64,000 nt of DNA from Actinomycetota bacterium. GTDB taxonomy: Bacteria > Actinomycetota > Acidimicrobiia > Acidimicrobiales > Aldehydirespiratoraceae. The stretch lies in assembly GCA_029979265.1 (NCBI GenBank), contig JAPOHW010000011.1:62001-126000 (forward strand), written 5' to 3'. Below are positions 12,685 through 40,583 of the stretch, one piece after another (within the stretch, counting starts at the first letter, position 1; every line of letters begins with the position of its first letter). The notes beneath the pieces were generated by a model. That model searched no databases, was not told where the DNA came from, and saw only the letters and a list, made by a program, of their open reading frames with translations. The translations under genes and the position numbers were made by a program.

Positions 12685-14229
12685 CTACGTTGTTTGCGTC
12701 GGCCACGACGAAGGCAGCGCTGCGTGCAGCCAGGCTGCCGCGGCAACAGCAGCCATGACGGCGTCGCTTGCATTGACCGGTTCGCCATCGCTCGACTCCA
12801 ACGTCACGTCGATGGTGGGGGTGTCGACCGCGCGCAGAATGCCGAACGAACGAATGGTGAGGTCGTGGATCGAACCATCGTCGGGATCGACGGCAAGGTG
12901 CTCGCTGCGAACCAGCCCGAGTCCCATGTGTGCTGCACCGGTGCAATACGACCGCAGGACGGTCGCCTCCACTTCGTCGGCAACCGCGCCGGCCCGGACC
13001 CTGACTTCGACACTGCCGTCGTCGGCGATGGCAGCCGTTGCGGACCCACCTCCAGGTGAATCGATCCAACCGACCTCACCGCGAATTGCTGCGGCCAGCA
13101 CCGATGCTTCCAACCACCCCGCGCCGCGCACCACCCCATCGGTCGCCGGGCCGGGGATGTCGACCTCCTCGACAGTGACCTCGGGAAGCACCCGCACGAT
13201 CGCATCGACGATGCCGGCGGTTCGGGCAACGCGTATCACACCCGTGCCGTCCAACCTGAGTCCCGCTGCGAGCGGGGGACGCTTGGCGCCAAGCCGGACC
13301 ACATCTTCTCGGGCGTAGAGCACGCGAACCGGTCGATCGTGCTCATCGGCCAACCGGCGCGCCGCAGCGACCACCTCGGTGTTGGCCTTTCCCCCGAACG
13401 CGCCCCCGTTGGCCAGCGCTGACGCCGGGGGACCACCCGGAGCACACCACGAGGCATCGGTCTCGAGATACCCCGGCTCGACCCAGGATGTTTGCAGCGT
13501 GATGTCCCAATCCCCCACCGGAAGGTCGATGGGCGGGCGGAAGGTTGCGGTGGTGCGCCGACCCTGCACCTTGCCGGCGGCGCGCACGGCATCGGTGCGG
13601 GATGCGGCAACGATCCACTCCCCGGCCAGGTTCGGGTGCGGCACGGCGACCAGCGCATCCGCAGGAGCCGTGTCGTCGGCGAATCCACCCTCGCCGAGCG
13701 CGACGTTCGAGCCGACACCTTGGGCTGCGCCGCCCTCGATCTCGGCTCGTCGGATGGCGGCGTCCGTCACCGAGACCGACGGCGCAGCCGGAAATGCCAC
13801 CCACGCATCGACGATCGGCTGCCAGCCGGTGCACCGACAGAGGTGCGCGAGAAGCGCGTCTTCGGCTGTGCTGCGGTCGTCATGCTGCCCACCCTTCGCT
13901 CGCAAGCTCTCGAACCGGCACACGATGCCCGGTGTGCAGAACCCGCACTGACTCCCACCGGTCGACGTGAACGCCTCACCCCACGCGGTACGGGTTCGGT
14001 GGTCGAGCCCCTCCACCGTGGTGATCGCGCGACCGCTGACCCGACGAACCGGCGTGACACACGACACTCGCGCCTGGCCGTCGACGAGCACCGTGCAGCA
14101 ACCACACTGACCCTGCGGTGAGCAGCCGTCTTTGACCGAGGTGATGCCACACTCCCCACGAAGAACGTCGAGCAGCGTCGACGTCTCGTCGGCGACCGTC
14201 CGAGCCTCACCGTTGACGATGATCTCCAT
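12685..14229 (-). CDS. Compact fused 2Fe-2S / molybdopterin xanthine-dehydrogenase-like protein
   Basis: The 514-residue protein has two complete 2Fe-2S modules: a plant-type one (DGCSPQGQCGCC, VSC) and an all-helical one (CGFCTPGIVC, LCRCTGW). From about residue 165 there is only about 350 residues of molybdopterin-subunit-like sequence, against about 700 in xanthine dehydrogenases. Recognisable pieces are GGAFGGK, then RPVRVLYAREDVVRLG, and a C-terminal SFGILRAVDTPTIDV and NASDAVMAAVAAAAWL. The long second half of the cofactor-binding region is absent. There is no frameshift, and coding quality is uniform. A -10 box TAACCT ends seven bases before ATG 14229. Whether it binds cofactor, and its substrate, are unknown. 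Confidence 0.8.
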   Translation of the reverse strand: MEIIVNGEARTVADETSTLLDVLRGECGITSVKDGCSPQGQCGCCTVLVDGQARVSCVTPVRRVSGRAITTVEGLDHRTRTAWGEAFTSTGGSQCGFCTPGIVCRFESLRAKGGQHDDRSTAEDALLAHLCRCTGWQPIVDAWVAFPAAPSVSVTDAAIRRAEIEGGAAQGVGSNVALGEGGFADDTAPADALVAVPHPNLAGEWIVAASRTDAVRAAGKVQGRRTTATFRPPIDLPVGDWDITLQTSWVEPGYLETDASWCAPGGPPASALANGGAFGGKANTEVVAAARRLADEHDRPVRVLYAREDVVRLGAKRPPLAAGLRLDGTGVIRVARTAGIVDAIVRVLPEVTVEEVDIPGPATDGVVRGAGWLEASVLAAAIRGEVGWIDSPGGGSATAAIADDGSVEVRVRAGAVADEVEATVLRSYCTGAAHMGLGLVRSEHLAVDPDDGSIHDLTIRSFGILRAVDTPTIDVTLESSDGEPVNASDAVMAAVAAAAWLHAALPSSWPTQTT

Positions 14230-17457: not shown

Positions 17458-18735
17458 GTGCCTACCCCCGGTCCAGCCGACCGTCCACCCTCCGTCGACA
17501 CGCTTGCCCGGTCGATCGCCGACGTCGGCCTGCCGCACCCGATGCTGGTCGATGCGGCCCGGACTGCCATCGCGAACAGAGATCCCGAGTCGGCCCGTGC
17601 CCTCGCAATCGCTGCACGTCGTCGAATGTTGCGACCCGTGATCAACGCAACCGGCACGATCCTGCACACCAACCTCGGCCGGGCACCACTGGCCGTCCAC
17701 CAGGACGAGCGCTACACCAACCTCGAACTCGACCTGACCAACGGTGAGCGCGGGAGCCGAATGGCCACGGCCGGTGATCTCATCGCCAAGGCATGTGGCG
17801 CCGAGAAGGCGATCATCGTGAACAACTGCGCAGCTGCCGTTCTCCTCGTGCTCAGCGGCCTGGCCGACGGACGCGACGTCGTGGTCAGCCGCAGCGAACT
17901 GGTCGAGATCGGGGGTGGCTTTCGGATCCCCGATGTCATGGCCCGCAGCGGAGCCAACCTGATCGAAGTCGGCACGACCAACCGGACCCGAGTGGCCGAC
18001 TTCGCCGGAGCCGTGGAGGACCCCGCAACCGATGTCGGCGTGGTGTTGCACGTCCACCAGTCGAACTACAAGATCGTCGGTTTCACCGAGGCCCCGACCA
18101 TTGCCGAACTCGCCGGGCTCGATGCGCCGCTCGTGGCCGACATCGGTTCCGGACTTCTCGACAGCCGTTGCCCCTGGCTGAAGGGAGGACCACCGGGTTG
18201 GCTCGCCGAGGAACCCGCCGCCCGCCAGACACTCGCCGCCGGGGCCGGTCTCGTTGCCTTTTCCGGTGACAAACTCTTCGGCGGACCGCAGGCCGGCATC
18301 ATCGCCGGCGATGCCGAACTGGTCGACCGCTGCGCCAACCATCCCCTGGCACGAGCCCTCCGACCCGGAGATCTCGTCCTTGGTGCACTCCAGGACACCG
18401 CTCTCGCCTACCTGCGCGAAGACGGTGATGCCATCCCGTTCTGGCGAATGGCCACCCTCACTGTCGCCGAACTGCGCGTTCGTGCGAACGCCTTCGAGGC
18501 CGCAGGTGTCGGTGACATCGCCGACGTAACGTCGACCCCGGGTGGTGGCACCCTTCCCGGCGTGGAGATCGACTCGATCGGCATCGCTCGGGTCGGCGAC
18601 CATCGCGACGCGCTGCGCAATCGTTCCCGGCCGGTGATCGCCCGAGTCGACGACGACACGACGTACATCGACCTGCGCACCGTGCACCCCGACGATGACG
18701 GCAACGTCATCGAGGCGTTGCGTTCGCTCGACTGA
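17458..18735 (+). CDS. selA: L-seryl-tRNA(Sec) selenium transferase
   Basis: The 425-residue PLP enzyme converts seryl-tRNA(Sec) to selenocysteyl-tRNA(Sec) with selenophosphate. Conserved features are INATGTILHTNLGRAPL, NNCAAAVLLVLSGLA, EIGGGFRIPDVM, TTNRTR, VADIGSGLLD and the PLP lysine in FSGDKLFGGPQAGI (Lys 272). At 425 residues it is slightly shorter than the E. coli enzyme. GTG 17458 lies six bases after a -10 box. Its TGA stop overlaps the selB ATG by one base. The selenium donor enzyme SelD is not in the window. Confidence 0.97.
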   Translation: MPTPGPADRPPSVDTLARSIADVGLPHPMLVDAARTAIANRDPESARALAIAARRRMLRPVINATGTILHTNLGRAPLAVHQDERYTNLELDLTNGERGSRMATAGDLIAKACGAEKAIIVNNCAAAVLLVLSGLADGRDVVVSRSELVEIGGGFRIPDVMARSGANLIEVGTTNRTRVADFAGAVEDPATDVGVVLHVHQSNYKIVGFTEAPTIAELAGLDAPLVADIGSGLLDSRCPWLKGGPPGWLAEEPAARQTLAAGAGLVAFSGDKLFGGPQAGIIAGDAELVDRCANHPLARALRPGDLVLGALQDTALAYLREDGDAIPFWRMATLTVAELRVRANAFEAAGVGDIADVTSTPGGGTLPGVEIDSIGIARVGDHRDALRNRSRPVIARVDDDTTYIDLRTVHPDDDGNVIEALRSLD

Positions 18736-20453
18736 TGCATGTCGTCGCCACCGCCGGACATGTCGACCACGGCAAGTCGACCCTCGTCACCGCCCTCACC
18801 GGGACAGACCCCGACCGACTCGAGGAGGAAAAGACACGAGGCCTCACGATCGATCTCGGGTTCGCCGGTGCAACGCTGCCGTCGGGTCGTGGCATCTCGT
18901 TCATCGACGTACCGGGCCACGTTCGATTCCTCAAAAACATGCTCGCAGGCGTCGGCGGAGTCGATGCGTGCCTGTTCGTCGTTGCGGCCACCGAGGGTTG
19001 GAAGCCGCAGTCCGAGGAGCACCTTCGGATCCTGAGTCTGCTCGGGATCCAGCGCGGCGTGATCGCACTCACCAAGATCGGTCAGGCCGATGATGATCTC
19101 GTCGAACTGGCCGAGATGGAGATCGCAGAGCGGACCGAGGGCACCTTTCTGGCCGATGCCGAGGTCGTGCCAGTCGACGCGGTCGATGGCGTGGGTCTGC
19201 GCAGCCTGACGGAGGCGATCGACCGGTTGCTCGACGTCACGCCGACCGCAGCCGACCGCAAACAGCCTCGACTCTGGGTCGACCGGGTGTTCGCCGCCAA
19301 AGGGGCGGGAACCGTGGTGACCGGGACACTCGCCGGCGGCATGCTCCGGGTCGACGACGAACTGATCGTGCTCCCTCACGGCCATGCGGTCCGAATTCGT
19401 GCGCTGCAGAGCCACTACGCCGATCGCACGAAGGTCGGTCCTGGAAATCGTGTTGCCGCAAACCTGTCAGGGGTTTCGTACGATCTCCTCTCGAGGGGTG
19501 ACGTGCTCGTGCGGCGCAGCGACTGGCACGTGACCCGACGGGTCGATGCCTCACTCCACGTGCTCGACTCGCTCGACCGACCGGTCACCAGACGCGGAGC
19601 CCACCTCGCCTACATCGGCTCGGGGGAACATCCTGTGCGGGTCCGCGTGCTCGGTCCCGATGCGATCGACCCGGGAGCCACGGGCGCTATTCGACTTCAT
19701 CTCCCGATCGACTTGCCGCTCGTGCCCGGCGACCGCTTCATCCTTCGCGAGTCCGGGCAGGGTGTGACGCTGGGTGGTGGCGAGATCCTCGACGTTGATC
19801 CCCTGGTCGCGGCGGCGAGAGCCACACCCGACCGGGATGTCGACCGCGTGGTCCGAGAGCGCGGCAAAGTGGAGGTCGAGCATCTCCGCCGCCTCACCGG
19901 CGAGCACCTCGAGCCGACGGTCGGGAAGTGGGTGGTGGACCCTGACCTCCTTGCGGTCGAAACGGATCGGCTCCGAACCGAGGTCGCCGATGCAGGCCCA
20001 CTCGGACTCGACCTCGCTCGGGTCGACGACTTCGGACGAGCAGTGCTGGAAACGCTCACCGATCTGGTGATCGACGGGGGCCATGTTCGTTCAGTAGCCA
20101 CGGGTGACGCGCTTGCCGAAAGCGATCTCGTCGCCCGCTTCGCAGCTGATCCCTTCAATCCACCCGACCCTGTACCACGTGAGGCGGCAGAGATCCGCGA
20201 ACTCGTCCGACGCGGCGACTTGATTTCGCAGTCCGGCGTCGTCTTCGCTGCCTCCGCGGTCGACGAGGCCGCACGGGTCGTCGCTCGACTGCTTGCCGAT
20301 CAGCCCGACGGCATCACGGTGGCCGAGGCTCGAGATGCGTGGGGCACGACCCGCAAGTTCGCCATTCCCCTGATCACCCGACTCGACGAGACAGGGGTGA
20401 CCCGCCGTCGCGACGACCTTCGCATCGCTGGACCACGGCTCCCCGAGATCTGA
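18735..20453 (+). CDS. selB: Selenocysteine-specific elongation factor
   Basis: The 572-residue protein carries the SelB GTPase domain: AGHVDHGKST, the G2 segment EKTRGLTIDLGFA, DVPGHVRFLKNML and TKIGQADD. Beta-barrel domains follow (about 170-340) and then winged-helix repeats (about 350-570), which in this family bind the SECIS hairpin in the mRNA. It delivers selenocysteyl-tRNA to in-frame UGA codons. It is coupled to selA by a one-base overlap. The G4 element TKIG departs from NKxD but SelB proteins commonly vary there. Together with the tRNA at 2039 it shows a working selenocysteine system. Confidence 0.97.
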   Translation: MHVVATAGHVDHGKSTLVTALTGTDPDRLEEEKTRGLTIDLGFAGATLPSGRGISFIDVPGHVRFLKNMLAGVGGVDACLFVVAATEGWKPQSEEHLRILSLLGIQRGVIALTKIGQADDDLVELAEMEIAERTEGTFLADAEVVPVDAVDGVGLRSLTEAIDRLLDVTPTAADRKQPRLWVDRVFAAKGAGTVVTGTLAGGMLRVDDELIVLPHGHAVRIRALQSHYADRTKVGPGNRVAANLSGVSYDLLSRGDVLVRRSDWHVTRRVDASLHVLDSLDRPVTRRGAHLAYIGSGEHPVRVRVLGPDAIDPGATGAIRLHLPIDLPLVPGDRFILRESGQGVTLGGGEILDVDPLVAAARATPDRDVDRVVRERGKVEVEHLRRLTGEHLEPTVGKWVVDPDLLAVETDRLRTEVADAGPLGLDLARVDDFGRAVLETLTDLVIDGGHVRSVATGDALAESDLVARFAADPFNPPDPVPREAAEIRELVRRGDLISQSGVVFAASAVDEAARVVARLLADQPDGITVAEARDAWGTTRKFAIPLITRLDETGVTRRRDDLRIAGPRLPEI

Positions 20454-26653: not shown

Positions 26654-26668
26654 TTTACACTTTGTAAA
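26654..26668. promoter_or_regulatory. 15-bp palindromic operator on a leaderless promoter
   Basis: TTTACAC-T-TTGTAAA is a palindrome with one mismatched pair. It covers the -10 box TACACT (26656-26661) and the start point of the hydroxylase operon, so a bound protein should block it. A matching site (12 of 15 bases) lies at 34651-34665. Confidence 0.65.
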
Positions 26669-28122
26669 TGTCAGCATCGTCGACGCCGAACGCATCCTGG
26701 TCCCTCCACCAGGTGCAACAACCGGGTCGCTCGGTGACGAAGGTCCTGCGGCCCACCACTCTCGACGAGGCGCTCTCGCTCCTGCGCAATCCGTCGGTAC
26801 ACCCGATTGCCGGTGGGACCGATCTCCTGCTCGACCTCGAACGCGGTGGCCCTGGCCCCGACGTCGAACTCCTCGATCTCACTGGGATCGAGGAACTCCG
26901 GCGTGTCACGGTCTCCGCCGATCGTGTCACCCTCGGCGCCCTCACCACCCACAACGACGTCGTCGCCCACCCCCACCTGCGCCGTGTGGCGCTTCCACTG
27001 GCACAGGCATGTCTCGAGATCGGGTCACCCCAACTCCGAAACCGAGCCACCGTCGCCGGCAATGTCGCAACCGCCAGCCCCGCCAACGACACGATCTCTG
27101 CCCTGCTCGCCCTCGACGCCGCAGTGGTACTGCGCTCGGCGACCGGTTCGCGCCGGGTCGACCTCGACGAGTTCTTCACCGGCTTTCGATCGACCGATCT
27201 ACGGCCCGGCGAATTGATCACGGCGATCGAGTTCCCCCCGATGGGACCCGCAACCGTCGGGATGTGGGTGAAGCTCGGGAATCGCGCTGCTCAGGCAATC
27301 TCGGTCGTTCATCTTGCTGCGCTCATCACCCGCAACGACGAGGGCATCGTCGTCGACGCCAGGTTGGCCATCGGTTCCGTCGCCGCCCGGGTCGTCCGCC
27401 TCCCCCAGGCCGAAGCTGCACTCGTCGGCGACCGACTCAGCGACCAATCGATCGCTGCCGCCGGGTTGGCTGCCACCGCAGCAGTGTCACCGATCGACGA
27501 CATCCGAGCAACGGGTGACTACCGCACCGAGACGATCCCGACGCTGGTGCGTCGGACGCTCATCACGCTGCGAGACGACAACGGGGCTAGCCGGTGGCCG
27601 AGCGATCCGCCCTGCCTCGGCCGCAGGCAACAGACGACCCCGACTGTTCCGGTAATCGACGAGCCCACCGAGATCGCCGTCGTCGTCAACGGTGAGACAT
27701 ATCGATCGACGAGCGCGCAGAACCGATCGCTGCTGACCTGGCTTCGGGACGAAGCGGGCATGACCGGTGCCAAAGAAGGGTGCGGTGAAGGTGAATGCGG
27801 AGCATGCACCGTCACCCTCGACGGCCAAGCCGTCATGAGCTGCCTTGTGAACGCAGCACAGGCCGAGGGCAGCACGATCGTCACCGTCGAGGGAGTCGGC
27901 AACGACGGGCCCACGCGTCTGCAAGAAGCGTTCATCGACGAGTTCGCCGTCCAATGCGGGTTCTGTATTCCTGGTTTCATCGTCGCCGGATCCGCATTGC
28001 TCACCGAGATTCCCGAGCCGACCGATGAGCAAATCCATCTGGGACTGTCGGGCAACCTGTGCCGCTGCACCGGTTACTACCCGATCGAGCAAGCCATCCG
28101 CGCTGCAGCAACGAGGGACTGA
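26668..28122 (+). CDS. Molybdenum hydroxylase FAD plus 2Fe-2S subunit fusion
   Basis: The 484-residue protein joins what are usually two subunits. The N-terminal FAD domain (about 25-300) has PIAGGTDLLLDL and TVAGNVATASPANDTISAL. The C-terminal 2Fe-2S part (about 325-480) has GCGEGECGACTV, CGFCIPGF and CRCTGYY. It passes electrons from the molybdenum centre of the next gene to an acceptor. ATG 26668 is six bases after the -10 box TACACT; GTG 26734, closer to the conserved start of the FAD domain, is the alternative. Its stop overlaps the next ATG by one base. Confidence 0.92.
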   Translation: MSASSTPNASWSLHQVQQPGRSVTKVLRPTTLDEALSLLRNPSVHPIAGGTDLLLDLERGGPGPDVELLDLTGIEELRRVTVSADRVTLGALTTHNDVVAHPHLRRVALPLAQACLEIGSPQLRNRATVAGNVATASPANDTISALLALDAAVVLRSATGSRRVDLDEFFTGFRSTDLRPGELITAIEFPPMGPATVGMWVKLGNRAAQAISVVHLAALITRNDEGIVVDARLAIGSVAARVVRLPQAEAALVGDRLSDQSIAAAGLAATAAVSPIDDIRATGDYRTETIPTLVRRTLITLRDDNGASRWPSDPPCLGRRQQTTPTVPVIDEPTEIAVVVNGETYRSTSAQNRSLLTWLRDEAGMTGAKEGCGEGECGACTVTLDGQAVMSCLVNAAQAEGSTIVTVEGVGNDGPTRLQEAFIDEFAVQCGFCIPGFIVAGSALLTEIPEPTDEQIHLGLSGNLCRCTGYYPIEQAIRAAATRD

Positions 28123-30365
28123 TGAGCGTCGGTGACTCCCCACGTCGCGACGACGCAGCGGCGAAGGCGGATGGCTCGGCCCGCTACGCCGGCGATGCCG
28201 TACCGTCCGGCGCGCTCCATGCCACAGCAGTCTTCTCGGGCAAACCGCACGCCCGTATGGTGTCGATGTCGACCGCAGCAGCCGAAGCGACCGACGGGGT
28301 CGTCGCTGTCCTGACCGCAGCCGACGTGCCGGTGAACGAGTACGGCCTCACCAAGTTCGACCAACCGGTCCTCATCGGCGTGGAGGACAGTGGCGAAGCG
28401 GCGACACCGAGCGATGTCTCGCGCTGGGAAGCAGACCACGTCGCCATCGTCGTCGCCGAGACGGCAACGGCCGCCAGCGCCGGAGCCGCTGCGCTCGAGA
28501 TCGAGTGGGAGGACCTGCCCCTCGTCGAGGACATCGATGCTGCGCTTGCCGCTGGCGCCCCGATCATTCATCCCGAGGACGGCCTCGACTCCAACGCCTA
28601 TCACCACCTCAAGATCCGCAAGGGCGATCTCGATGCGGGCTGGGACGAGGCGGACGTCGTGGTCGACAGCATCTACGAGGTTCCCCACCAAGAACATGCG
28701 TTCCTCCAACCGGAAGCGGGCACGTCGTACGTCGACGACCAGGGCCGGATCACGATCGAGGTCGGCGGTCAGTGGACCTCCGAGGATCAGGAGCAGGTCG
28801 CCCATGCGCTCGGACTCGACAGGGAGCAGGTCAGGATCATCTATCGAGCAATCGGCGGAGCGTTCGGCGGCAAGGAGGACATGTCGATCCAGATCGTGCT
28901 CGGGTTGGCGGCAATGCGATTGGCCGAACGCGGCGAACGACGGCCGATCCACTGCCAGTGGTCACGCGAAGAGTCGATCGTCGGCCACCACAAACGACAT
29001 CGCGGCCGCATCCGGCTCCGACTCGGCGCCACCGCCACCGGTCACATCACTGCGCTCGAAGCCGACATCGATCTCGACGCAGGCGCCTACAACTACACGT
29101 CGAACAAGGTCCTCGGGAACGCGCACCTGTCGGTCGGGGGGGCCTACCGGATCCCGAACGCCCGCATCGACAGTCGAGCGATCTACACCACGACCGTGCC
29201 CGGCGGCGCGTTCCGAGGGTTCGGTGGCCCCCAGGGTCACTTTGCCATCGAATCAGCGATGAACAAGTTGGCGCGTGAACTCGAGATCGATCCGGTCGAA
29301 CTTCGCCTGCGCAATGCCCTGGTCGATGGCGACGACGGCATCACCCAGACCACGATGCCGGAGGGAGTGACCGTTGCCGAGGTCATCACCGCCTGCGCGC
29401 AACGCGCTGGCCACGGTGTGCCGCTGCGCGACCCAGCTCCCTTTTCGCCAGTGGCCTCGTTGCCGTCGGAATCGTCATCGCTGCGTCGTGGCCGCGGGTT
29501 CGCGTCTGGATTCAAGAACGTCGGCTTCTCGTTCGGCTTTCCCGAACGATGCGAAGCAGAGATCCACCTCCACGGTTCCGACGACGACACCGAACCGACG
29601 CACGCCGACCTCTTCCATGGAGGCGCCGAAGTCGGCCAGGGTGCCCACCTCGCAATGCGACAGATGGCAGCCGATGCCACCGGTCTCCCGCTGGATGCGG
29701 TCACCGGCCATTTTTCCGACACGGCAACCTCGGGCGACCCGGGATCGGCATCGGCCAGCAGACTCACCTTCATGTCCGGCAACTCGATTCTCGGTGCGGC
29801 CGAGGAGGCCGAGAAGGCATGGCGCGACGGAGCTCGCCCAGCCGTCGGTCGATTCCGCTACACCCCTCCGCCCACCGAGCAACTCGATCCCGAAACCGGC
29901 AGAGGAACCCCGAACTTCTGCTACGGCTACATGGCGCAGTGCATCGAGGTCACCGTCGACATCGAGACTGGCCACATCCGCGTCGACCGAGTCACCAGTA
30001 CCCACGACGTCGGCAAGGCGATCAACCCGAGGCTCGTGCGCGGGCAGATCGAGGGTGCCGTCGTCCAGGCCCACGGCTATGCGCTGTCCGAAGATCTCCA
30101 ACTTCGTGACGGCATGATCACCAACCCTCGCTTCTCCGGGTACCTCATTCCCGGCATCGGCGACATCCCGACCGTCGTCGACAGTCAGATCCTGGAACTC
30201 GCAGATCCGCTCGGGCCGTTCGGCGCGCGCGGCGTGGCCGAAATGCCGTTCATCACCTATGCACCTGCGCTCACCGCAGCCGTGTACGACGCCACCGGCG
30301 TCTGGTTCGATCGGTTCCCGCTCACGCCGAGTCGGGTGCTGGCCGGTCTGCGGGCCAACGGTTGA
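28122..30365 (+). CDS. Molybdenum hydroxylase large subunit (xanthine dehydrogenase/CoxL family)
   Basis: The 747-residue molybdopterin subunit shows GGAFGGKEDMS, the active-site loop GGAFRGFGGPQGHFAIESA and a C-terminal GPFGARGVAEMPFITYAPAL around the conserved catalytic glutamate region. The FRGFGGPQ loop is that of xanthine- or aldehyde-oxidising members, not of CO dehydrogenase. The substrate is probably a purine, other N-heterocycle or aldehyde. It is coupled to the FAD/2Fe-2S gene by TGATG. No other gene follows on this strand; a convergent operon ends 26 bases away. Confidence 0.92.
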   Translation: MSVGDSPRRDDAAAKADGSARYAGDAVPSGALHATAVFSGKPHARMVSMSTAAAEATDGVVAVLTAADVPVNEYGLTKFDQPVLIGVEDSGEAATPSDVSRWEADHVAIVVAETATAASAGAAALEIEWEDLPLVEDIDAALAAGAPIIHPEDGLDSNAYHHLKIRKGDLDAGWDEADVVVDSIYEVPHQEHAFLQPEAGTSYVDDQGRITIEVGGQWTSEDQEQVAHALGLDREQVRIIYRAIGGAFGGKEDMSIQIVLGLAAMRLAERGERRPIHCQWSREESIVGHHKRHRGRIRLRLGATATGHITALEADIDLDAGAYNYTSNKVLGNAHLSVGGAYRIPNARIDSRAIYTTTVPGGAFRGFGGPQGHFAIESAMNKLARELEIDPVELRLRNALVDGDDGITQTTMPEGVTVAEVITACAQRAGHGVPLRDPAPFSPVASLPSESSSLRRGRGFASGFKNVGFSFGFPERCEAEIHLHGSDDDTEPTHADLFHGGAEVGQGAHLAMRQMAADATGLPLDAVTGHFSDTATSGDPGSASASRLTFMSGNSILGAAEEAEKAWRDGARPAVGRFRYTPPPTEQLDPETGRGTPNFCYGYMAQCIEVTVDIETGHIRVDRVTSTHDVGKAINPRLVRGQIEGAVVQAHGYALSEDLQLRDGMITNPRFSGYLIPGIGDIPTVVDSQILELADPLGPFGARGVAEMPFITYAPALTAAVYDATGVWFDRFPLTPSRVLAGLRANG

Positions 30366-32761: not shown

Positions 32762-34129
32762 TCAGGCGATGGGCTGGAACCGTCGAGCAGCAGCGCTGTG
32801 AGCAGCCAACTTCTCGTCGAGATCGGGGGCGAGGAGCATGCCGGCCTCGACAACCGACCTACCACCCACGATGGTGTGCCACGCGGCATGAGGACCGGTC
32901 CGCAGCCATCCCTCGACCAGATCGTCGAGCACGCCTGCGAAGATCGGCCCGTCGAGCTTCCAGATCGCGACGTCGCCGACGGCACCGACCGACAATTCAC
33001 CGAGTTCACCGTCGCGACCGAGGCAACCAGCGCCACCCCGGGTCGAGATCTCGAGCACGGTGCGGGCATCCATTGCCCCAGGCCCCGACGTCAACTTCCC
33101 CTGCAACAGTGCGAGCCGAGCCTCCTGCCAAAGCGACGCCGAATCGGCTGACGACGAACCGTCACAGCCCAGACCAACCGGACACCCGGCTCGGCGAAGG
33201 GCCGTGATCGGGGCAATACCCGACGCAAGGATCATGTTGGAACTGGGGCAATGAGCAACCCCGACACCGGCGGCGCCGAGGCGCTCGATCTCCCCGGGAT
33301 CGGGCATCACGACGTGGGCACCCCAGGCCCGACTCGACATCCACCCGCAGTGCTCGAGATAGTCGACGGGACGCATGCCGAAGGTAGCGATGGCGAAGTC
33401 GTCGTCCTCGGCGTTCTCGGCCAGGTGTGTGTGCAGTCGCACATCGAGCCGCTCGGCAAGTTCCGCCGACCGGATCATCAGATCGGTTGACACCGTGAAC
33501 GGCGAGCACGGCGCGAGCGCCACCTGCAGCATCGAGCCGTGTGACGGGTCGTGGTGGCGTTCCACTGCGCGCTGCGACTCGGCGAGAATGTCGTCCTCGT
33601 CCCGCACGGCATCGTCGGGGGGAAGCCCACCCTTCGACTCCCCGAGCGACATCGAGGCGTACGTCGGATGGAATCGCATCCCGAGATCGACGGCGGCGCG
33701 GATCTCGGCACCGAGGAGGTCACCGGCCCGAACAGGATGGAGATAGTGGTGATCCGACGACGTCGTACAGCCGCTCAGCGCCAGTTCGGCCAACCCGATC
33801 CAGGCCGCGAGATACTCGGCTTCCTCGTCGATTGCTGCGGTCCACAGTGGGTACAACGACTGGAGCCAGCCGAACAATGGGGCCGAGGTCATCGGCGAAT
33901 ACGCCCGCGTCAGATTCTGAAAGAGGTGATGGTGGGTATTGACCAGTCCCGGTGTCACCAGACAGCCGTCAGCATCGATCAGCCGGTCGGCCATGGGCTC
34001 GGCATCGAGGGACGAGCCGACTCCGGAGATCAACCCGTCGGTGATCGCCACCCATCCACCGGGGAGTTCACGACGTTGCGCATCGACGGTGGCAACCAGC
34101 GCTGCATTCCGAATCAGAAGGTCGGTCAT
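32762..34129 (-). CDS. 8-oxoguanine deaminase / hydroxyatrazine-hydrolase-like amidohydrolase
   Basis: The 455-residue protein has the amidohydrolase metal ligands: HHH in VNTHHHLFQNLTRAYSP, the histidine of HTHLAEN, and the aspartate of GLGCDGSSSADSA. The stretch from TRAYSP to LFGWLQSLYPLW is typical of the 8-oxoguanine deaminase/hydroxydechloroatrazine group. It should hydrolytically deaminate an oxidised purine or triazine-like ring. The ATG overlaps the regulator stop by four bases (ATGA), so the regulator is made together with this enzyme. The neighbouring molybdenum hydroxylases could supply oxidised purines. Confidence 0.88.
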   Translation of the reverse strand: MTDLLIRNAALVATVDAQRRELPGGWVAITDGLISGVGSSLDAEPMADRLIDADGCLVTPGLVNTHHHLFQNLTRAYSPMTSAPLFGWLQSLYPLWTAAIDEEAEYLAAWIGLAELALSGCTTSSDHHYLHPVRAGDLLGAEIRAAVDLGMRFHPTYASMSLGESKGGLPPDDAVRDEDDILAESQRAVERHHDPSHGSMLQVALAPCSPFTVSTDLMIRSAELAERLDVRLHTHLAENAEDDDFAIATFGMRPVDYLEHCGWMSSRAWGAHVVMPDPGEIERLGAAGVGVAHCPSSNMILASGIAPITALRRAGCPVGLGCDGSSSADSASLWQEARLALLQGKLTSGPGAMDARTVLEISTRGGAGCLGRDGELGELSVGAVGDVAIWKLDGPIFAGVLDDLVEGWLRTGPHAAWHTIVGGRSVVEAGMLLAPDLDEKLAAHSAAARRFQPIA

Positions 34130-34629
34130 CGGGGATCAGCATCGCCCGGCTCGGGGGGAGCGAGGGCATTCAGATAGTTGTAGATCGTGATGCGGCTCAC
34201 ACCCATCAATTCCCCCACCGACTCGACAGCCTTGCGCAGGAGAAACGCGCCGCGCTCGTCGAGCAGCCGAACTGCGGCCTGCTTGTCCTTGCGAGAGAGT
34301 TCCGAGAGTGATCCGCCGAGCTCTTCTTCCACCGCTGCCACCATCTGGGCGAGGGCATCGTGGAGATCTCCGAACCGGGTTGCCGTGGGCGACTCACCGA
34401 AGCGGATCTGGACCGCAGTCGCTCCACTGGCGAGCGCGGCTCGGCTCATGTCGTGTACCGCGGTGGTGACCGCATCGACCGATCCGACGATGGTGGTGGC
34501 GAACGGACCGACATCTGGTTCGAGTCCGTTGGCCCGACACGCTTCGAGTGCCGCCGAGACGTGCGGCCCCGGGAGACCCTCGACGAACGGCTCGACCAAG
34601 AACTCGGCACGAACGGCATCCACGGCCAC
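34126..34629 (-). CDS. Regulator: thiamine-binding-type domain fused to YheO/DauR-type HTH
   Basis: The 167-residue protein has an N-terminal domain (about 5-78) like the MTH1187/YkoF thiamine-binding family: EFLVEPFVEGLPGPHVSAAL, GPFATTIVG and SGATAVQIRF. The C-terminal part (about 110-155) matches the HTH of YheO/DauR regulators: LSRKDKQAAVRLLDERGAFL then GVSRITIYNYL. YheO/DauR proteins normally carry a PAS-like sensor instead. It would sense a small ring compound and bind DNA. GTG 34629 is six bases after TACGGT. The operator at 34651-34665 lies just upstream, between it and the divergent carbamoylase operon. Confidence 0.75.
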   Translation of the reverse strand: MAVDAVRAEFLVEPFVEGLPGPHVSAALEACRANGLEPDVGPFATTIVGSVDAVTTAVHDMSRAALASGATAVQIRFGESPTATRFGDLHDALAQMVAAVEEELGGSLSELSRKDKQAAVRLLDERGAFLLRKAVESVGELMGVSRITIYNYLNALAPPEPGDADPR

Positions 34630-34650: not shown

Positions 34651-34665
34651 TTGACAATTTGTTAA
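34651..34665. promoter_or_regulatory. 15-bp palindromic operator between divergent operons
   Basis: TTGACAA-T-TTGTTAA is a palindrome with one mismatched pair. It overlaps the first bases of the plus-strand -10 box TAAGTT (34663-34668), which ends seven bases before ATG 34676. It matches the site at 26654-26668 in 12 of 15 positions. Confidence 0.65.
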
Positions 34666-34675
34666 GTTTTCCCCG

Positions 34676-35908
34676 ATGACCGATCTTCACATCGACATCG
34701 ATCGATTGATCGAGCGCCTCGCTGCGCTGGCCGAGATCGGCGCGATTGCGGGCACAGAGGGGTGCGCTCGCTTGGCGCTCACCGACGAGGACCGGGCCGG
34801 CCGCGACCTGGTCGTCTCGTGGATGCACGATCTCGAACTCAACGTCACGATCGACGGCATCGGCAACGTCGTCGGCGTGATGGCCGGCAGCACCGAGGGG
34901 GCACCGGTCATGACCGGTTCACACATCGACACCGTCCGTACCGGTGGCCGCTATGACGGCAACCTGGGCGTGCTCGCAGGCCTCGAGGTGATCGAGACCC
35001 TTCGCATCGCGAACGTGACCCCCGACCGTCCCCTCGCCGTCGCCTTCTTCACCGACGAGGAGGGAGCTCGCTTCCCGCCCGACATGCTCGGCAGCCTCGT
35101 CTACGTCGGTGGAATGGGAGTCGAGGAAGCACACGCCATCACGGGCATCGACGGGGCCACAGTCGGCAGCGAACTCGACCGGATCGGCTACCTCGGTTCC
35201 GCACCACTGCCCGGAGCCGCTCCGCATGCGTTCGTCGAGCTGCACGTCGAGCAGGGTCCGGTCCTCGAAACGGAGGGCCTCACGATCGGTGCTGTCACCG
35301 GCGTCCAGGGCATCAGTTGGACCGAGGTCACCGTGACCGGACAATCCAACCACGCCGGCACGACACCGATGGAACTTCGAAGAGATCCTGGCGTCGTCGC
35401 GTTCAAGGTCGGTTCGTTCGTGCACGAACTCGCCCACGAACTCGGTGCACCACAGGTCGCCACCGTCGGCAGGATCGAGATGCACCCCAACCTCGTCAAC
35501 GTGGTCCCTGCATCAGCCACATTCACCATCGATCTGCGGCACACCGACAACGACATGCTCCTCAAGGCCGAGCGCCGCACCAAGGACTTCCTCACTGCTG
35601 CGGCGGCGTCCGAGAACTGCACGATCGAGCTCCGCAGCCTCGCTCGATTCGACCCGGTGATCTTCGACGAGACCGTCGTCTGCGCTGTCGAGAACATTGC
35701 CACCGCGCAGGGTCACGCCGTACGCCGCATGCCGTCGGGAGCTGGCCACGACGCCCAGATGCTGGCGCGGGTCTGCCCGACCGGCATGGTGTTCGTCCCG
35801 AGCGTCGGCGGGGTCAGCCACAACCCTGCCGAATACACCTCGCCCGAAGATCTGGAGGCCGGCGCAAACGTGCTGCTCCACGTGATGCTCGACTTGGCGG
35901 CGACATGA
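34676..35908 (+). CDS. M20-family N-carbamoyl / allantoate / ureido amidohydrolase
   Basis: The 410-residue protein belongs to the hydantoinase/carbamoylase family of M20 metallohydrolases. Metal ligands are visible: GSHIDTVRTGGRYDGNLGV split as GSHIDTV and GRYDGNLGV, TDEEGARF, ELHVEQGPVLE and VGGVSHNPAEY. Relatives are N-carbamoyl-L-amino acid hydrolase, allantoate amidohydrolase and beta-ureidopropionase, all of which release ammonia and CO2 from ureido groups. It starts the operon with the nitrilase-family enzyme and the Se-XDH-like gene. It is leaderless, with the operator on its promoter. Confidence 0.92.
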   Translation: MTDLHIDIDRLIERLAALAEIGAIAGTEGCARLALTDEDRAGRDLVVSWMHDLELNVTIDGIGNVVGVMAGSTEGAPVMTGSHIDTVRTGGRYDGNLGVLAGLEVIETLRIANVTPDRPLAVAFFTDEEGARFPPDMLGSLVYVGGMGVEEAHAITGIDGATVGSELDRIGYLGSAPLPGAAPHAFVELHVEQGPVLETEGLTIGAVTGVQGISWTEVTVTGQSNHAGTTPMELRRDPGVVAFKVGSFVHELAHELGAPQVATVGRIEMHPNLVNVVPASATFTIDLRHTDNDMLLKAERRTKDFLTAAAASENCTIELRSLARFDPVIFDETVVCAVENIATAQGHAVRRMPSGAGHDAQMLARVCPTGMVFVPSVGGVSHNPAEYTSPEDLEAGANVLLHVMLDLAAT

Positions 35909-36894
35909 CCTCTACCCCCATCGACCCCGACGCCGCGGCCCCCACCGCCCACCAGGATCGACCACCGCGCCGTCTTAGGGTGGCTGCCGGCCAACTCGGA
36001 CCGATCAGCGCATCCGAACCACGCACATCGGTCGTCGACCGCTTGATCCATCTGCTCGAGCAAGCCCACCGCAACGGGGCCGAACTCATCGCCTTTCCCG
36101 AACTCGCGCTCACCACGTTCTTTCCGCGCTGGTACGTCGAAGGCGACCCGGCTCTGGATCTCGACTCGTTCTACGAGACCGAGATGCCCGGGCCTGAAAC
36201 CCAGCCGCTGTTCGATCGCGCGGCAGAACTCGGGATCGGATTCGCCCTCGGCTATGCCGAACTCACCCCGGACGAACACCGATACAACACCCAGATCCTC
36301 GTCGAGCGCGATGGCTCGATCGTGGGCCACTACCGCAAGGTCCATCTGCCCGGGCATCGCGAGCACGAGCCCTGGCGCGAGTTCCAGCACCTCGAGCGGC
36401 GATACTTCGAACCTGGCCCTGGCTTCGAGACCTGGAACGCCTTCGGCGGTGTCGTTGGCATGGCGACCTGCAACGATCGACGGTGGCCGGAAACCTACCG
36501 GGTCCTTGCGCTGCAGGGCGCCGAGCTCATCCTCATCGGCTACAACACGCCGAAGCACTACGCCCCCGATCCGAGCCAGAATCCGCTGCAGGGCTTCCAC
36601 AATCGACTCGTGATGCAGGCGGGCGCGTACCAGAACGGCTGTTACGTGATCGGCGTCGCCAAGGGTGGCTGCGAAGAGGGAGTCGACTCCCTCGCCGAAA
36701 GCTGCATCATCGGGCCGAGTGGGATGATCCTGGCCGAGTGTCACACCGAAGCCGACGAGGTCATCACGGTCGAGGTCGACCTCGCCGAGACCGCCAAATT
36801 CAAAGAAACGCTTTTCGACTTCGAGCGCTACCGGCGCCCCGAGGTGTACGGACCGATCACCGCCCAGCGGGGCGCGATCCCACCAAAGGACTGA
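35905..36894 (+). CDS. Nitrilase-superfamily N-carbamoyl-D-amino-acid-hydrolase-like enzyme
   Basis: The 329-residue protein has the Glu-Lys-Cys triad: FPELALTTFFPRWY, YRKVHLPGH and ATCNDRRWPETYR. The CNDRRWPE signature around the nucleophile is that of N-carbamoyl-D-amino acid amidohydrolases; beta-ureidopropionases are close. The first 20 residues are a variable proline-rich leader. ATG 35905 overlaps the stop of the M20 gene by four bases. Two unrelated carbamoyl-amide hydrolases in one operon suggest a ureido intermediate of purine or pyrimidine breakdown. Confidence 0.9.
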   Translation: MTSTPIDPDAAAPTAHQDRPPRRLRVAAGQLGPISASEPRTSVVDRLIHLLEQAHRNGAELIAFPELALTTFFPRWYVEGDPALDLDSFYETEMPGPETQPLFDRAAELGIGFALGYAELTPDEHRYNTQILVERDGSIVGHYRKVHLPGHREHEPWREFQHLERRYFEPGPGFETWNAFGGVVGMATCNDRRWPETYRVLALQGAELILIGYNTPKHYAPDPSQNPLQGFHNRLVMQAGAYQNGCYVIGVAKGGCEEGVDSLAESCIIGPSGMILAECHTEADEVITVEVDLAETAKFKETLFDFERYRRPEVYGPITAQRGAIPPKD

Positions 36895-36895
36895 G

Positions 36896-39484
36896 ATGCC
36901 TGGTTTCATCGTCAACGGAGAGGTCGTCGAGGTGGGCGAGCATCACGAGCATCTGCTCGCTGCACTGCGCGACGAACTCCGCATCACCTCACCCAAGGAC
37001 GGCTGCTCCCCGTCGGGGCAGTGCGGATGCTGCACCGTACTGATCGATGGCAAGGCCCGTATCTCGTGCCAGACGTCACTCGACAAGGCCAGCGGCGCCG
37101 AGATCACCACACTCGAGGGCGTTCCCGAAGCCGAGCGGGCTCGCATGGCCGACGCATTCGCTGCACATGGCGCGCTCCAATGCGGATTCTGCACTCCGGG
37201 CATCGTCATGCGCACGGTCGCCCTGCTCAGCCGCGACAAGGAAACCACCCGTGACGACGCTGCCCGCCACCTGGGAGCCCACCTGTGTCGCTGCACCGGC
37301 TATGTGAAGATCCTCGATGCGGTCGAATCGCTGGCCAAGGGCGAAACACCGGTTGCGATCAATGCTGGTGGCGTCGGCGACCGCGGCACCAAGTACGAGG
37401 GACAGTCCCTCACGCTCGGCGATCGCGACTTCATCGACGACATGGAGCCGGACGGGTGTCTGCACGGGGCGGTTGTTCTGAGCGAGCATGCACGGGCCGA
37501 CGTCCACGCAATCGATGCGTCGGCTGCGCTGGCCATGCCCGGCGTGGTCGCAGTTCTGACTGCAGCCGACGTTCCCGGTGAGCTTCGCAGTGGGCTGATC
37601 CACAAGGATTGGCCGGCATTCATCCCGGTCGGTGGCCGAACGTCGTATCTGGGCGACGTGATTGCGCTCGTGGTGGCCGAAACCCGCGCCCAAGCTCGCG
37701 CTGCGACATCGGCGGTGGCTGTCGAGTACGGCGTCCTGGCGCCGTTCACCAACCCGGCCGACGCGCTCGGCGCCGACGAGGACGCCGTGTGGACACTCGA
37801 GGGCAACATGCTCAGCCGCTCGGCGTATGCCCGCGGCGACATCGACGCTGCCTTCGAGCGAGCGACCCATATCGCTCGCGCCACCTTCCAGACCCAGCGC
37901 ATCGATCACGCCTTTCTCGAACCCGAGTCGACCCTGGCCGTACCCACCATCGGGCGCGGCGGTGCCACCGAATCGTTGTACGTCTACTCGGGTGGGCAGG
38001 GCGTGTGGGATGACCGCAACGACATTGCCCGCATGCTCGACGTCCCCACCGAACAGGTCACGGTCGAACTCGTCTCGAACGGTGGCGCCTTCGGCGGCAA
38101 GGAGGACATGTCGAACCAGGGCCAGACGGCGCTCGCCGCTTGGCTGCTCGGGCGGCCGGTGAAAACCACCTTCTCTCGCGAAGAATCGTTTCTCGTGCAC
38201 ACGAAACGGCACCCGATCCGCATGCAGTACGAGGTCGGCTGCGATGCCGACGGCACGCTCCTGGCCGTCCGAGCAAAAATGATCGGTGACTCCGGGCCCT
38301 ACGCCTCAGTTGGCATGAAGGTGCTGGAGCGCGCTGCGGGTCACGCGAGCGGTCCGTACGTGACCGAGACCATCGACATCGAGGCGATCGCAGTACGGAC
38401 CAACAACTCGGTCTGCGGTGCGTTCCGCGGCTTCGGCGCCAACCAGGCGCAGTTCGCCATGGAAGGCATGATGGATCGCCTCGCAGCCATGGTCGGCATC
38501 TCGGGATGGGAGATCCGCAGCCGCAACGTCGTCGAGCCCGGCGCCGTGTGGGGTCCCGGGCAGATCATGGACGAGGGTTGCCTCGGTGCCCGCGCCTGCC
38601 TCGATGCGGTCAAACCCGCCTGGGACGCAGCCGAAGCGGCAGGCAGCCCTGTGGGCGTGGGTCTGGGGCTGAAGAACTCCGGGCTCGGCAACGGCGCACA
38701 CGAGGTCAGTCGTTCGACCGTCCGCTTCGAGCCCGACGGCACCGTCGAAATCCGCCACTGCTGGACGGAGATGGGACAGGGAATCCACACCGTCGCTCGC
38801 CAGGTCGCCGTCGAAGAACTCGGCATCGACGCCGACCGCATTAAGGTCATCGTCGACACCACCCGTGAACTCGGTGCCGGACAGACCACCGGATCTCGGG
38901 GCACGGTCATGGGCGCAGGCTCGGTCGCCGATGCGTGCCGCAACGCCGTCGCCGGTGGCTGCGAGGTCGGGGTCGAGTACGAGGGTGTCTATGTGGTCGA
39001 CTGGACCAACTCGATCAACGACGGGCTCGAGCATCCGATCATCCATTCCACGTTCGGTTACGCAGCCCAACTCGTCGAACTCGACCCCGCATCCGGCGAC
39101 ATCGCGAAGGTGGTCGCGGCCCACGACGTCGGCCGAGCCGTCAACCCACTGCTGTGCGAGGGCCAGATCGAGGGAGCCGTACACATGGGTCTCGGGTATG
39201 CGCTCAGCGAGGGGTTTCCGTGCGACGAGAACGGCAAACCGCTCAACGAGACGCTCCGTTCACTCGACATCATTCGCCCGAAAGACATGCCCCAGACAGA
39301 GGTCATCCTCGTCGAATCGCCCGATCCCAACTCGCCGTACGGGATCAAGGGTGTCGGTGAGATCGGCCTCGTTCCCACCGCAGGCGCCGTCGCAGCCGCA
39401 CTCCAGTCCCATGACGGAGAGTGGCGCTACGAGCTACCCATGCGCACCAAAAAGAACCGCGAACGGGCCAGTGCGTGGCAGTGA
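36896..39484 (+). CDS. Fused 2Fe-2S / molybdopterin hydroxylase, selenium-dependent xanthine dehydrogenase type
   Basis: The 862-residue protein has 2Fe-2S modules at the N-terminus (DGCSPSGQCGCC, ISC; CGFCTPGIVM; LCRCTGY) followed by a full molybdopterin region with GGAFGGKEDMSNQGQ, CGAFRGFGANQAQFAMEG and PYGIKGVGEIG. There is no FAD domain. The layout, the FRGFG-Q-FAMEG loop and the SsnA neighbour match the proposed selenium-dependent xanthine dehydrogenase family, whose members carry a labile selenium ligand rather than selenocysteine. It begins one base after the previous stop. That it needs selenium is an inference. Confidence 0.85.
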   Translation: MPGFIVNGEVVEVGEHHEHLLAALRDELRITSPKDGCSPSGQCGCCTVLIDGKARISCQTSLDKASGAEITTLEGVPEAERARMADAFAAHGALQCGFCTPGIVMRTVALLSRDKETTRDDAARHLGAHLCRCTGYVKILDAVESLAKGETPVAINAGGVGDRGTKYEGQSLTLGDRDFIDDMEPDGCLHGAVVLSEHARADVHAIDASAALAMPGVVAVLTAADVPGELRSGLIHKDWPAFIPVGGRTSYLGDVIALVVAETRAQARAATSAVAVEYGVLAPFTNPADALGADEDAVWTLEGNMLSRSAYARGDIDAAFERATHIARATFQTQRIDHAFLEPESTLAVPTIGRGGATESLYVYSGGQGVWDDRNDIARMLDVPTEQVTVELVSNGGAFGGKEDMSNQGQTALAAWLLGRPVKTTFSREESFLVHTKRHPIRMQYEVGCDADGTLLAVRAKMIGDSGPYASVGMKVLERAAGHASGPYVTETIDIEAIAVRTNNSVCGAFRGFGANQAQFAMEGMMDRLAAMVGISGWEIRSRNVVEPGAVWGPGQIMDEGCLGARACLDAVKPAWDAAEAAGSPVGVGLGLKNSGLGNGAHEVSRSTVRFEPDGTVEIRHCWTEMGQGIHTVARQVAVEELGIDADRIKVIVDTTRELGAGQTTGSRGTVMGAGSVADACRNAVAGGCEVGVEYEGVYVVDWTNSINDGLEHPIIHSTFGYAAQLVELDPASGDIAKVVAAHDVGRAVNPLLCEGQIEGAVHMGLGYALSEGFPCDENGKPLNETLRSLDIIRPKDMPQTEVILVESPDPNSPYGIKGVGEIGLVPTAGAVAAALQSHDGEWRYELPMRTKKNRERASAWQ

Positions 39485-39554: not shown

Positions 39555-40583
39555 GTGACGATCACGACGCCGGGCATGGTCTGCGCCCACCATCACCTCT
39601 ACAGTTCGCTGGCTCGGGGGATGCCGGCTCCACCTCGCACACCGAGTGACTTCCGGGAGGTCCTCGATCTCGTGTGGTGGCGCCTCGACCGGGCGCTCGA
39701 TCTCGAGACGATCGAGTGGTCGGCAAAGCTCGGGGCCCTGGAGGCGCTCGAACGAGGCACCACCGCCATCATCGATCACCACGAGTCACCGAACGCCATC
39801 GAAGGTTCGCTCACCGTCATCGCCGACGCATGCGAGGAGGTCGGTGTCCGCGTGTCGTGCTCCTATGGCATCACCGATCGCCACGGCGCCGACGGAGCAG
39901 CAGCCGGATTGGCGGAGAACGACCGGTTCCTCGGCGACGGGGAACGAGAGGGCTATGTCGGCCTCCACGCTGCATTCACGTGCTCCGACGAGACGATCGC
40001 CGCCGCAGCCGAGCTGGCCGACAAGCACGGAGTCGGCGTCCACGTCCATGTCGCCGAGGGCGCCGACGACACCTGGGACCGCCTCGTCGATCACAGTGAG
40101 GACGACTGGCTGATCGTGCACGGTGTCCATCTCCCCGACGAACACGGCCTGCGAGGCACCCTCGTCCACAACCCGCGATCCAACATGAACAACTCGGTCG
40201 GCTACGCCCGGCCCCGTCGGCTCGGTCTCGAGGTTGCTCTCGGTACCGACGGAATCGGTGCCGACATGCTCGAAGAGTTCCGACTCGCCTACGTGGCCGC
40301 CCGAGCCGACGATGTCACCGTCGATCCCGAACTCGCCTGGAACTGGCTCCGGACAGGTTGGGATCTCATGCCTGCTGCACTCGACGACGAGGTCTGCTGG
40401 GCGGCCGAGTCCGATGACCCGTGGCACCTCGCCTTCACCACCGGCGTCTCACCACTCGAGGTGCTCCGTGACGGTGAAGTCGTCTGGGACGGTGAGCCGA
40501 CACTGGTCGACGGGGACGAGATTCGCGCCAAGGCGGCAGAAGCAGCATCGAAGCTCCACGCACGACTCGCAGACATCGAGTGA
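39555..40583 (+). CDS. ssnA: SsnA-like aminohydrolase lacking the N-terminal strand domain
   Basis: The 342-residue protein follows SsnA closely: PGMVCAHHHLYSSLARGMP, LVWWRLDRALD, TTAIIDHHESPNAIEGSL, HNPRSNMNNSVGY and LGTDGIGADMLEEF with the metal aspartate. Typical SsnA proteins are about 440 residues and begin with some 55 residues of beta-strands, absent here: the frame has a TGA at 39540 and only GTG 39555 fits. In E. coli ssnA sits in the selenium-dependent purine cluster. The reaction is unproven; hydrolytic deamination of a purine is the usual guess. Confidence 0.82.
   Translation: MTITTPGMVCAHHHLYSSLARGMPAPPRTPSDFREVLDLVWWRLDRALDLETIEWSAKLGALEALERGTTAIIDHHESPNAIEGSLTVIADACEEVGVRVSCSYGITDRHGADGAAAGLAENDRFLGDGEREGYVGLHAAFTCSDETIAAAAELADKHGVGVHVHVAEGADDTWDRLVDHSEDDWLIVHGVHLPDEHGLRGTLVHNPRSNMNNSVGYARPRRLGLEVALGTDGIGADMLEEFRLAYVAARADDVTVDPELAWNWLRTGWDLMPAALDDEVCWAAESDDPWHLAFTTGVSPLEVLRDGEVVWDGEPTLVDGDEIRAKAAEAASKLHARLADIE

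Follow-up and report, generated by a model that had tools for sequence, protein, structure and literature searches.

A Putative Regulator of Purine Catabolism in Acidimicrobiia Joins a Thiamine_BP-Type Domain to an HTH_22 Domain

Gene cluster around the regulator

The window, which is the whole 64,000-nucleotide stretch of DNA analysed here, comes from a bacterium of the class Acidimicrobiia (Actinomycetota). It contains a small gene for a putative transcription regulator, which is surrounded by genes of purine breakdown. The features are as follows (window coordinates, strand, description):

26654..26668, no strand, second predicted operator TTTACACTTTGTAAA, directly next to the ATG start of the XdhFAD-FeS gene
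26668..28122, plus, xanthine-dehydrogenase-type FAD and 2Fe-2S subunit (profiles), behind the second operator
28119..30365, plus, xanthine-dehydrogenase-type molybdopterin subunit (profiles)
32762..34129, minus, 8-oxoguanine deaminase (NF006055, 570.8 bits, cut-off 532)
34126..34629, minus, fused regulator with Thiamine_BP-type N-domain and HTH_22 C-domain (167 aa, GTG start)
34168..34353, minus, HTH_22 DNA-binding domain of the regulator, residues 93-154 (Pfam, alignment)
34390..34614, minus, N-terminal sensor-like domain of the regulator, residues 6-80 (Pfam, alignment, conservation)
34651..34665, no strand, predicted operator TTGACAATTTGTTAA, in the 46 bp that separate the divergent regulator and M20 genes
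34676..35908, plus, M20 amidohydrolase of allantoate amidohydrolase/YgeY type, the divergent target gene (NF006771, 425.2 against 399; TIGR01879, 408.9 against 204)
35905..36894, plus, carbon-nitrogen hydrolase (PF00795)
36896..39484, plus, fused FeS/molybdopterin hydroxylase, nearest to the Se-dependent xanthine dehydrogenase of XdhD type (TIGR03311, 793 bits, below the cut-off of 830)
39555..40583, plus, SsnA-like aminohydrolase (best families NF005540/TIGR03314, below cut-off)

The start of the deaminase gene overlaps the regulator stop codon by 4 nt (ATGA), which places the two genes in one operon. The first-pass annotation had placed the regulator in a cluster for the breakdown of purines or related rings, and the deaminase, the M20 amidohydrolase, the Mo-hydroxylases and the SsnA-like gene confirm this setting.

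SsnA, XdhD and YgeY act in the reductive pathway of uric-acid degradation, which has been described in Escherichia coli and Clostridioides difficile; its cluster comprises XdhD, YgfK/UacX, SsnA, HyuA, YgeW/UacY, YgeY and YgeX (PMC12507026). The cluster in the window shares the SsnA-, XdhD- and YgeY-type genes; however, HyuA and YgfK are absent, and the 8-oxoguanine deaminase, the carbon-nitrogen hydrolase and a second Mo-hydroxylase are additional. By gene content it thus resembles a shortened version of the reductive uric-acid cluster. Related loci further include a luciferase-family (LLM) reductase with a PLP enzyme (PALP; locus L073) and an Fe-S protein (L034), which we take to be YgfK-like from its position, its Fe-S domains and its resemblance to YgfK. 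Additions of the YgfK type, the luciferase-family reductase type and the PLP-enzyme type were also reported for the clusters of other phyla, and a term search of the same paper found no mention of a regulator (PMC12507026).

The window also carries a tRNA-Sec gene (2039-2130, Rfam) and two ORFs (17458-18735 and 18735-20453) which were named SelA- and SelB-type by sequence reading. Therefore, the selenocysteine machinery shares the window with the cluster resembling SsnA and Se-dependent xanthine dehydrogenase genes. A third, short Mo-hydroxylase-like ORF (12685-14229) has FeS motifs but misses much of the large-subunit sequence, and is possibly degenerate or a different enzyme.

Domains and fold of the regulator

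The Pfam search revealed two domains in the regulator. The Thiamine_BP profile (PF01910) matched residues 21-74 with 28.1 bits (gathering score 24.9, E 2e-6), and the HTH_22 profile (PF13309) matched residues 93-154 with 69.7 bits (gathering score 29.6, E 2.2e-19), spanning profile positions 2-63 of 63. Both halves had been read from the sequence in the first-pass annotation, as an MTH1187/YkoF-like N-terminus and a YheO/DauR-type HTH, and the HMM searches that it had proposed support both assignments. No PAS family was found in the fused regulator at E values up to 1, and the Pfam scan also detected no MarR winged-helix family.

The AlphaFold2 model (mean pLDDT 84.9) has two confident domains, a beta-alpha-beta-alpha-beta N-domain and a helical C-domain, which are joined by a linker of low confidence (residues 82-90). 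In a Foldseek comparison with the PDB, the 14 top matches were without exception DUF77/MTH1187 proteins (1yqh, 2eky/2epi, 1vk8, 1lxn, 1lxj and 2ibo), and the model shows the ferredoxin-like fold of the solved Thiamine_BP members. The DUF77 structures were also recovered by sequence in a profile search; phmmer searches from the single regulator sequence gave weak PDB matches.

The NCBIfam equivalog model for MTH1187 thiamine-binding proteins (TIGR00106) scored 14.7 bits against a trusted cut-off of 54.7, and therefore the name 'thiamine-binding' is not transferable to the regulator as a function. One alternative is that thiamine or HMP is still a ligand of the N-domain, which would couple purine breakdown to vitamin status. 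The Thiamine_BP match above the gathering score is in its favour; however, the low TIGR00106 score, the predicted targets, which include no thiamine genes, and the search of the window, which found no TPP riboswitch, make this reading highly improbable.

The near-invariant motifs of the N-domain are EF..EPF.EG.PG.HV in the beta1-alpha1 loop, and GPF; the alignment of the HTH domain showed an invariant GVSR..IYNYLN motif. Among the 111 sequences compared, E9, P14, F15, G69 and A70 are retained in nearly all, including those from outside the class, where the remainder of the EF..EPF.EG.PG.HV loop is variable. This loop is a candidate place for the ligand, as judged from conservation.

Fused and split forms of the regulator

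The fusion is present in 8/8 congeners, in many other Acidimicrobiia and in dozens of independent assemblies, and this recurrence rules out an assembly or frameshift artefact. Other lineages encode each half in a gene of its own; the two genes occupy the same cluster position and are usually adjacent. The junctions of the split pairs are usually ATGA or GTGA overlaps of start and stop codons, which excludes a programmed frameshift between the two ORFs. The divergent placement at the purine cluster is conserved in both forms. The window thus carries, as one fused gene, a regulator that is widely encoded as a pair; it has a recognisable operator and a small regulon. These points go beyond the first-pass annotation.

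Matches were found in 72 of 247 class genomes, and both halves occur in 71 of these 72, which is strong evidence for a joint function of the two proteins. The occurrence of the regulator also follows that of SsnA: 68 genomes have both, 4 the regulator only, 30 SsnA only and 145 neither (Fisher test, 9e-32, with kinship ignored). In some genomes the halves are in inverted arrangement, are separated by kilobases or lie at the two ends of the cluster (L135-L140, L144); for example, in L144 the Thiamine_BP-type gene is about 12 kb from the HTH gene.

Ferredoxin-like domains often serve for assembly only, so the N-domain might be an oligomerisation module, with the true sensor elsewhere. The AlphaFold2 model, which says nothing about a pocket, would agree with such a role. 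On the other hand, the loop of the N-domain is strongly conserved, and the domain has been kept as a small protein of its own, even at the distance seen in L144; pure oligomerisation is thus quite unlikely.

The linkers of the fused proteins form two groups of 11-16 and 36-58 residues, and the longer group is near the length of the stretch that precedes the HTH in the split gene (roughly 53 residues). No Pfam match was found in the N-terminal stub of the split HTH protein (roughly 45 residues), and no PAS domain was detected in three split HTH proteins searched against Pfam at E values up to 0.5; the model of the split HTH protein gave no PDB match with Z of 5 or more. The long-linker fusions are L060, L067-L070, L092 and L096. 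Their linker and the N-terminal stub of the split HTH gene are of similar length, which suggests that these proteins represent an intermediate fusion stage. Parsimony requires 4 changes for the fusion history, and a single origin is compatible with the data (AU p 0.58; 0.81 without L122).

Predicted operator

A 15-bp palindrome, TTNACANNNTGTNAA, was found in the divergent promoter by comparison of upstream regions. It is kept ahead of fused and split regulators whose upstream regions otherwise share little, and occurs exactly in 52 of 110 upstream regions (mean of 0.1 in shuffles). Some regulators, including those of Ilumatobacteraceae, have no site ahead of their own gene. One genome, G021, has a fused copy together with a split pair (contigs 18 and 29), with an operator-like site near each.

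A pattern search of the own genome (3.3 Mb, 94% complete) revealed three TTNACANNNTGTNAA sites and none of the reversed control pattern. Two of them are in the window. The third is on another contig (locus L151, 7215-10017; G000 contig 18, 231214 onward), where it overlaps the start of a PLP-enzyme gene that is followed by a second one, and this site is conserved across the genus. The first of these PLP enzymes is of a 514-aa type, and two split-pair loci from outside the class contain relatives of it (59-62% identity). The enzyme has no NCBIfam identification, and it possibly catalyzes a late step of the pathway.

Split lineages of deep divergence show the site in the altered form TYRACANNNTGTYRA, which still marks cluster promoters, including those of Mo-hydroxylase genes. 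Promoters of cluster genes, which make up 14.6% of the sequence, contain 23 of the 26 TYRACANNNTGTYRA sites, with a motif that was defined after the loci had been viewed; 360 permuted half-sites gave a median of 0. Five Ilumatobacteraceae-type genomes have the site at a distance of 2.6-5.4 kb from SsnA and the regulator pair on another contig, so that control would be in trans. As a control, 30 class genomes that have SsnA and no regulator were searched. The exact pattern occurred 5 times, in three genomes, and never near SsnA, which indicates that the site follows the regulator and not the pathway. The SsnA clusters of these 30 genomes (such as G105, G115 and G127) have neither regulator nor operator, and must be under the control of a different regulator.

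About 10 bp separate the window operator from the M20 ATG. Toward the regulator, the operator supplies the hexamer TTAACA; TACGGT follows 18 bp on, and then the GTG start. Given that the sites touch or overlap start codons and hexamers that resemble promoter elements, repression is the simplest reading. Activation is an alternative, as the site is near promoters on both sides and, to our knowledge, the regulators with HTH_22 are not all known as repressors. However, the sites are close to the M20 ATG, touch the XdhFAD ATG or overlap the PLP-enzyme ATG, and promoter-like hexamers are overlapped or abutted, which makes an activator improbable.

Occurrence outside the class

In a search across the phylum, the pair was found side by side in 10 genomes called Streptomyces-like, an inferred label which rests partly on gene order. 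The locus that was read in detail (L128) has the order gcl-hyi-[pair]-OHCU decarboxylase, HIU hydrolase, uricase and 8-oxoguanine deaminase. The OHCU decarboxylase, the uricase and the deaminase were named from profiles, and the glyoxylate genes and the HIU hydrolase from sequence reading. The fused form occurs in another family, where it is followed by uricase, two nucleobase permeases and then the downstream genes of L128. One out-of-class split pair is located with a dihydropyrimidinase/hydantoinase, a carbamate kinase and two carbamoyltransferases. The palindrome is absent from the Streptomyces-like and other out-of-class loci examined, and the link between operator and regulator is therefore limited to Acidimicrobiia.

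In S. coelicolor, SCO6208 neighbours the urate genes SCO6209-6211; it is listed as a 'putative transposase' in one data set (PMC3897704). The synteny suggests that SCO6208 may be the HTH half of the pair.

One regulator accompanies both routes of uric-acid breakdown, the oxidative (uricase) and the reductive (SsnA) clusters, which suggests an effector from before the routes diverge, that is urate, xanthine or 8-oxoguanine. The proposal of the first-pass annotation that the N-domain pocket could sense a ring compound of the pathway is consistent with this context. The same regulator and operator might instead respond to a non-purine effector, such as a later product (a hydantoin, a ureido compound or diaminopropionate) or another metabolite, with a reshaped N-domain. 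Several observations would fit: the third site of the own genome precedes two PLP-dependent enzymes of the late reductive-pathway type, the out-of-class pair described above is located with hydantoinase, carbamate kinase and carbamoyltransferase genes, and the beta1-alpha1 loop is near-invariant here, unlike in the solved relatives. However, uricase-linked clusters would not make reductive intermediates, whereas xanthine, 8-oxoguanine and urate are common to both pathways, and a non-purine effector appears fairly unlikely.

Proposed function and mechanism

The preferred reading is that the protein is a ligand-controlled, autoregulatory repressor of purine and uric-acid catabolism with a purine-ring effector, with a probability of roughly 0.6. 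It would act as a one-component transcription regulator, whose HTH_22 domain most likely binds TTNACANNNTGTNAA as a dimer or higher oligomer. The predicted targets are the regulator-deaminase operon and, on the other side, the M20, CN-hydrolase, Mo-hydroxylase and SsnA genes, together with the xanthine-dehydrogenase genes and the distant PLP-enzyme operon. Repression, including autorepression, would be steric, and the DNA would be released once the Thiamine_BP-type N-domain has bound a small molecule. The likeliest effector would be a purine-ring compound common to both pathways, with urate first, and then xanthine or 8-oxoguanine. In the two-gene lineages, the fusion, the gene overlap and the co-occurrence suggest that the small Thiamine_BP protein may act as sensor partner to the HTH protein.

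A wider proposal, to which we give even odds, is that these proteins form an undescribed class of purine/urate sensors in Actinomycetota. The class would consist of a DUF77/Thiamine_BP sensor subunit and an HTH_22 partner, encoded by two coupled genes (also in the Streptomyces-like uricase operons) or fused into one repressor in Acidimicrobiia, and would control both uric-acid pathways.

Comparison with known systems

The regulator has a full-length HTH_22 domain like the YheO/DauR-type regulators (YheO-like PAS plus HTH_22), but a Thiamine_BP-type domain or partner protein stands in place of the PAS domain, which was not found. It shares the ferredoxin-like fold and a profile match above the Pfam cut-off with the MTH1187/YkoF/DUF77 family. 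Unlike in that family, the domain here has a DNA-binding protein as fusion or pairing partner and is located at purine genes; moreover, its beta1-alpha1 loop is re-specialised and its score is below the TIGR00106 cut-off.

The gene of the MarR-family repressor HucR is divergent from urate-degrading genes, with a site in the shared promoter and release by urate (PMC5487221). The regulator is similar to HucR and other urate-responsive MarR repressors in its divergent gene, its predicted shared-promoter site and its proposed ligand release; however, it is unrelated to HucR, PecS and MftR, with another sensor fold and another HTH type. The archaeal thiamine regulator ThiR consists of an HTH and a ThiN domain. 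Both ThiR and the present regulator join an HTH to a domain from thiamine metabolism, but the thiamine-related domain is different and the predicted targets here contain no thiamine genes. As the first-pass annotation had supposed, no described regulator of this architecture was found in the open-access literature, which was the part searched (subscription papers lay outside it). A one-component regulator with a sensor from a family not known for sensing, which also has a two-gene form, may therefore be new.

If the proposal is true, the DUF77/thiamine-binding-type proteins, which are usually annotated without a role, would gain a function as sensors of transcription factors. The missing regulator of the reductive uric-acid cluster of Acidimicrobiia would be named, and a likely regulator would be provided for the Streptomyces uricase operon, beside which SCO6208 stands. 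The two-gene and fused forms offer an evolutionary series, open to testing, that leads from a gene pair to a single fused gene, and the regulator could possibly serve as a new part for urate biosensors that does not belong to the MarR family.
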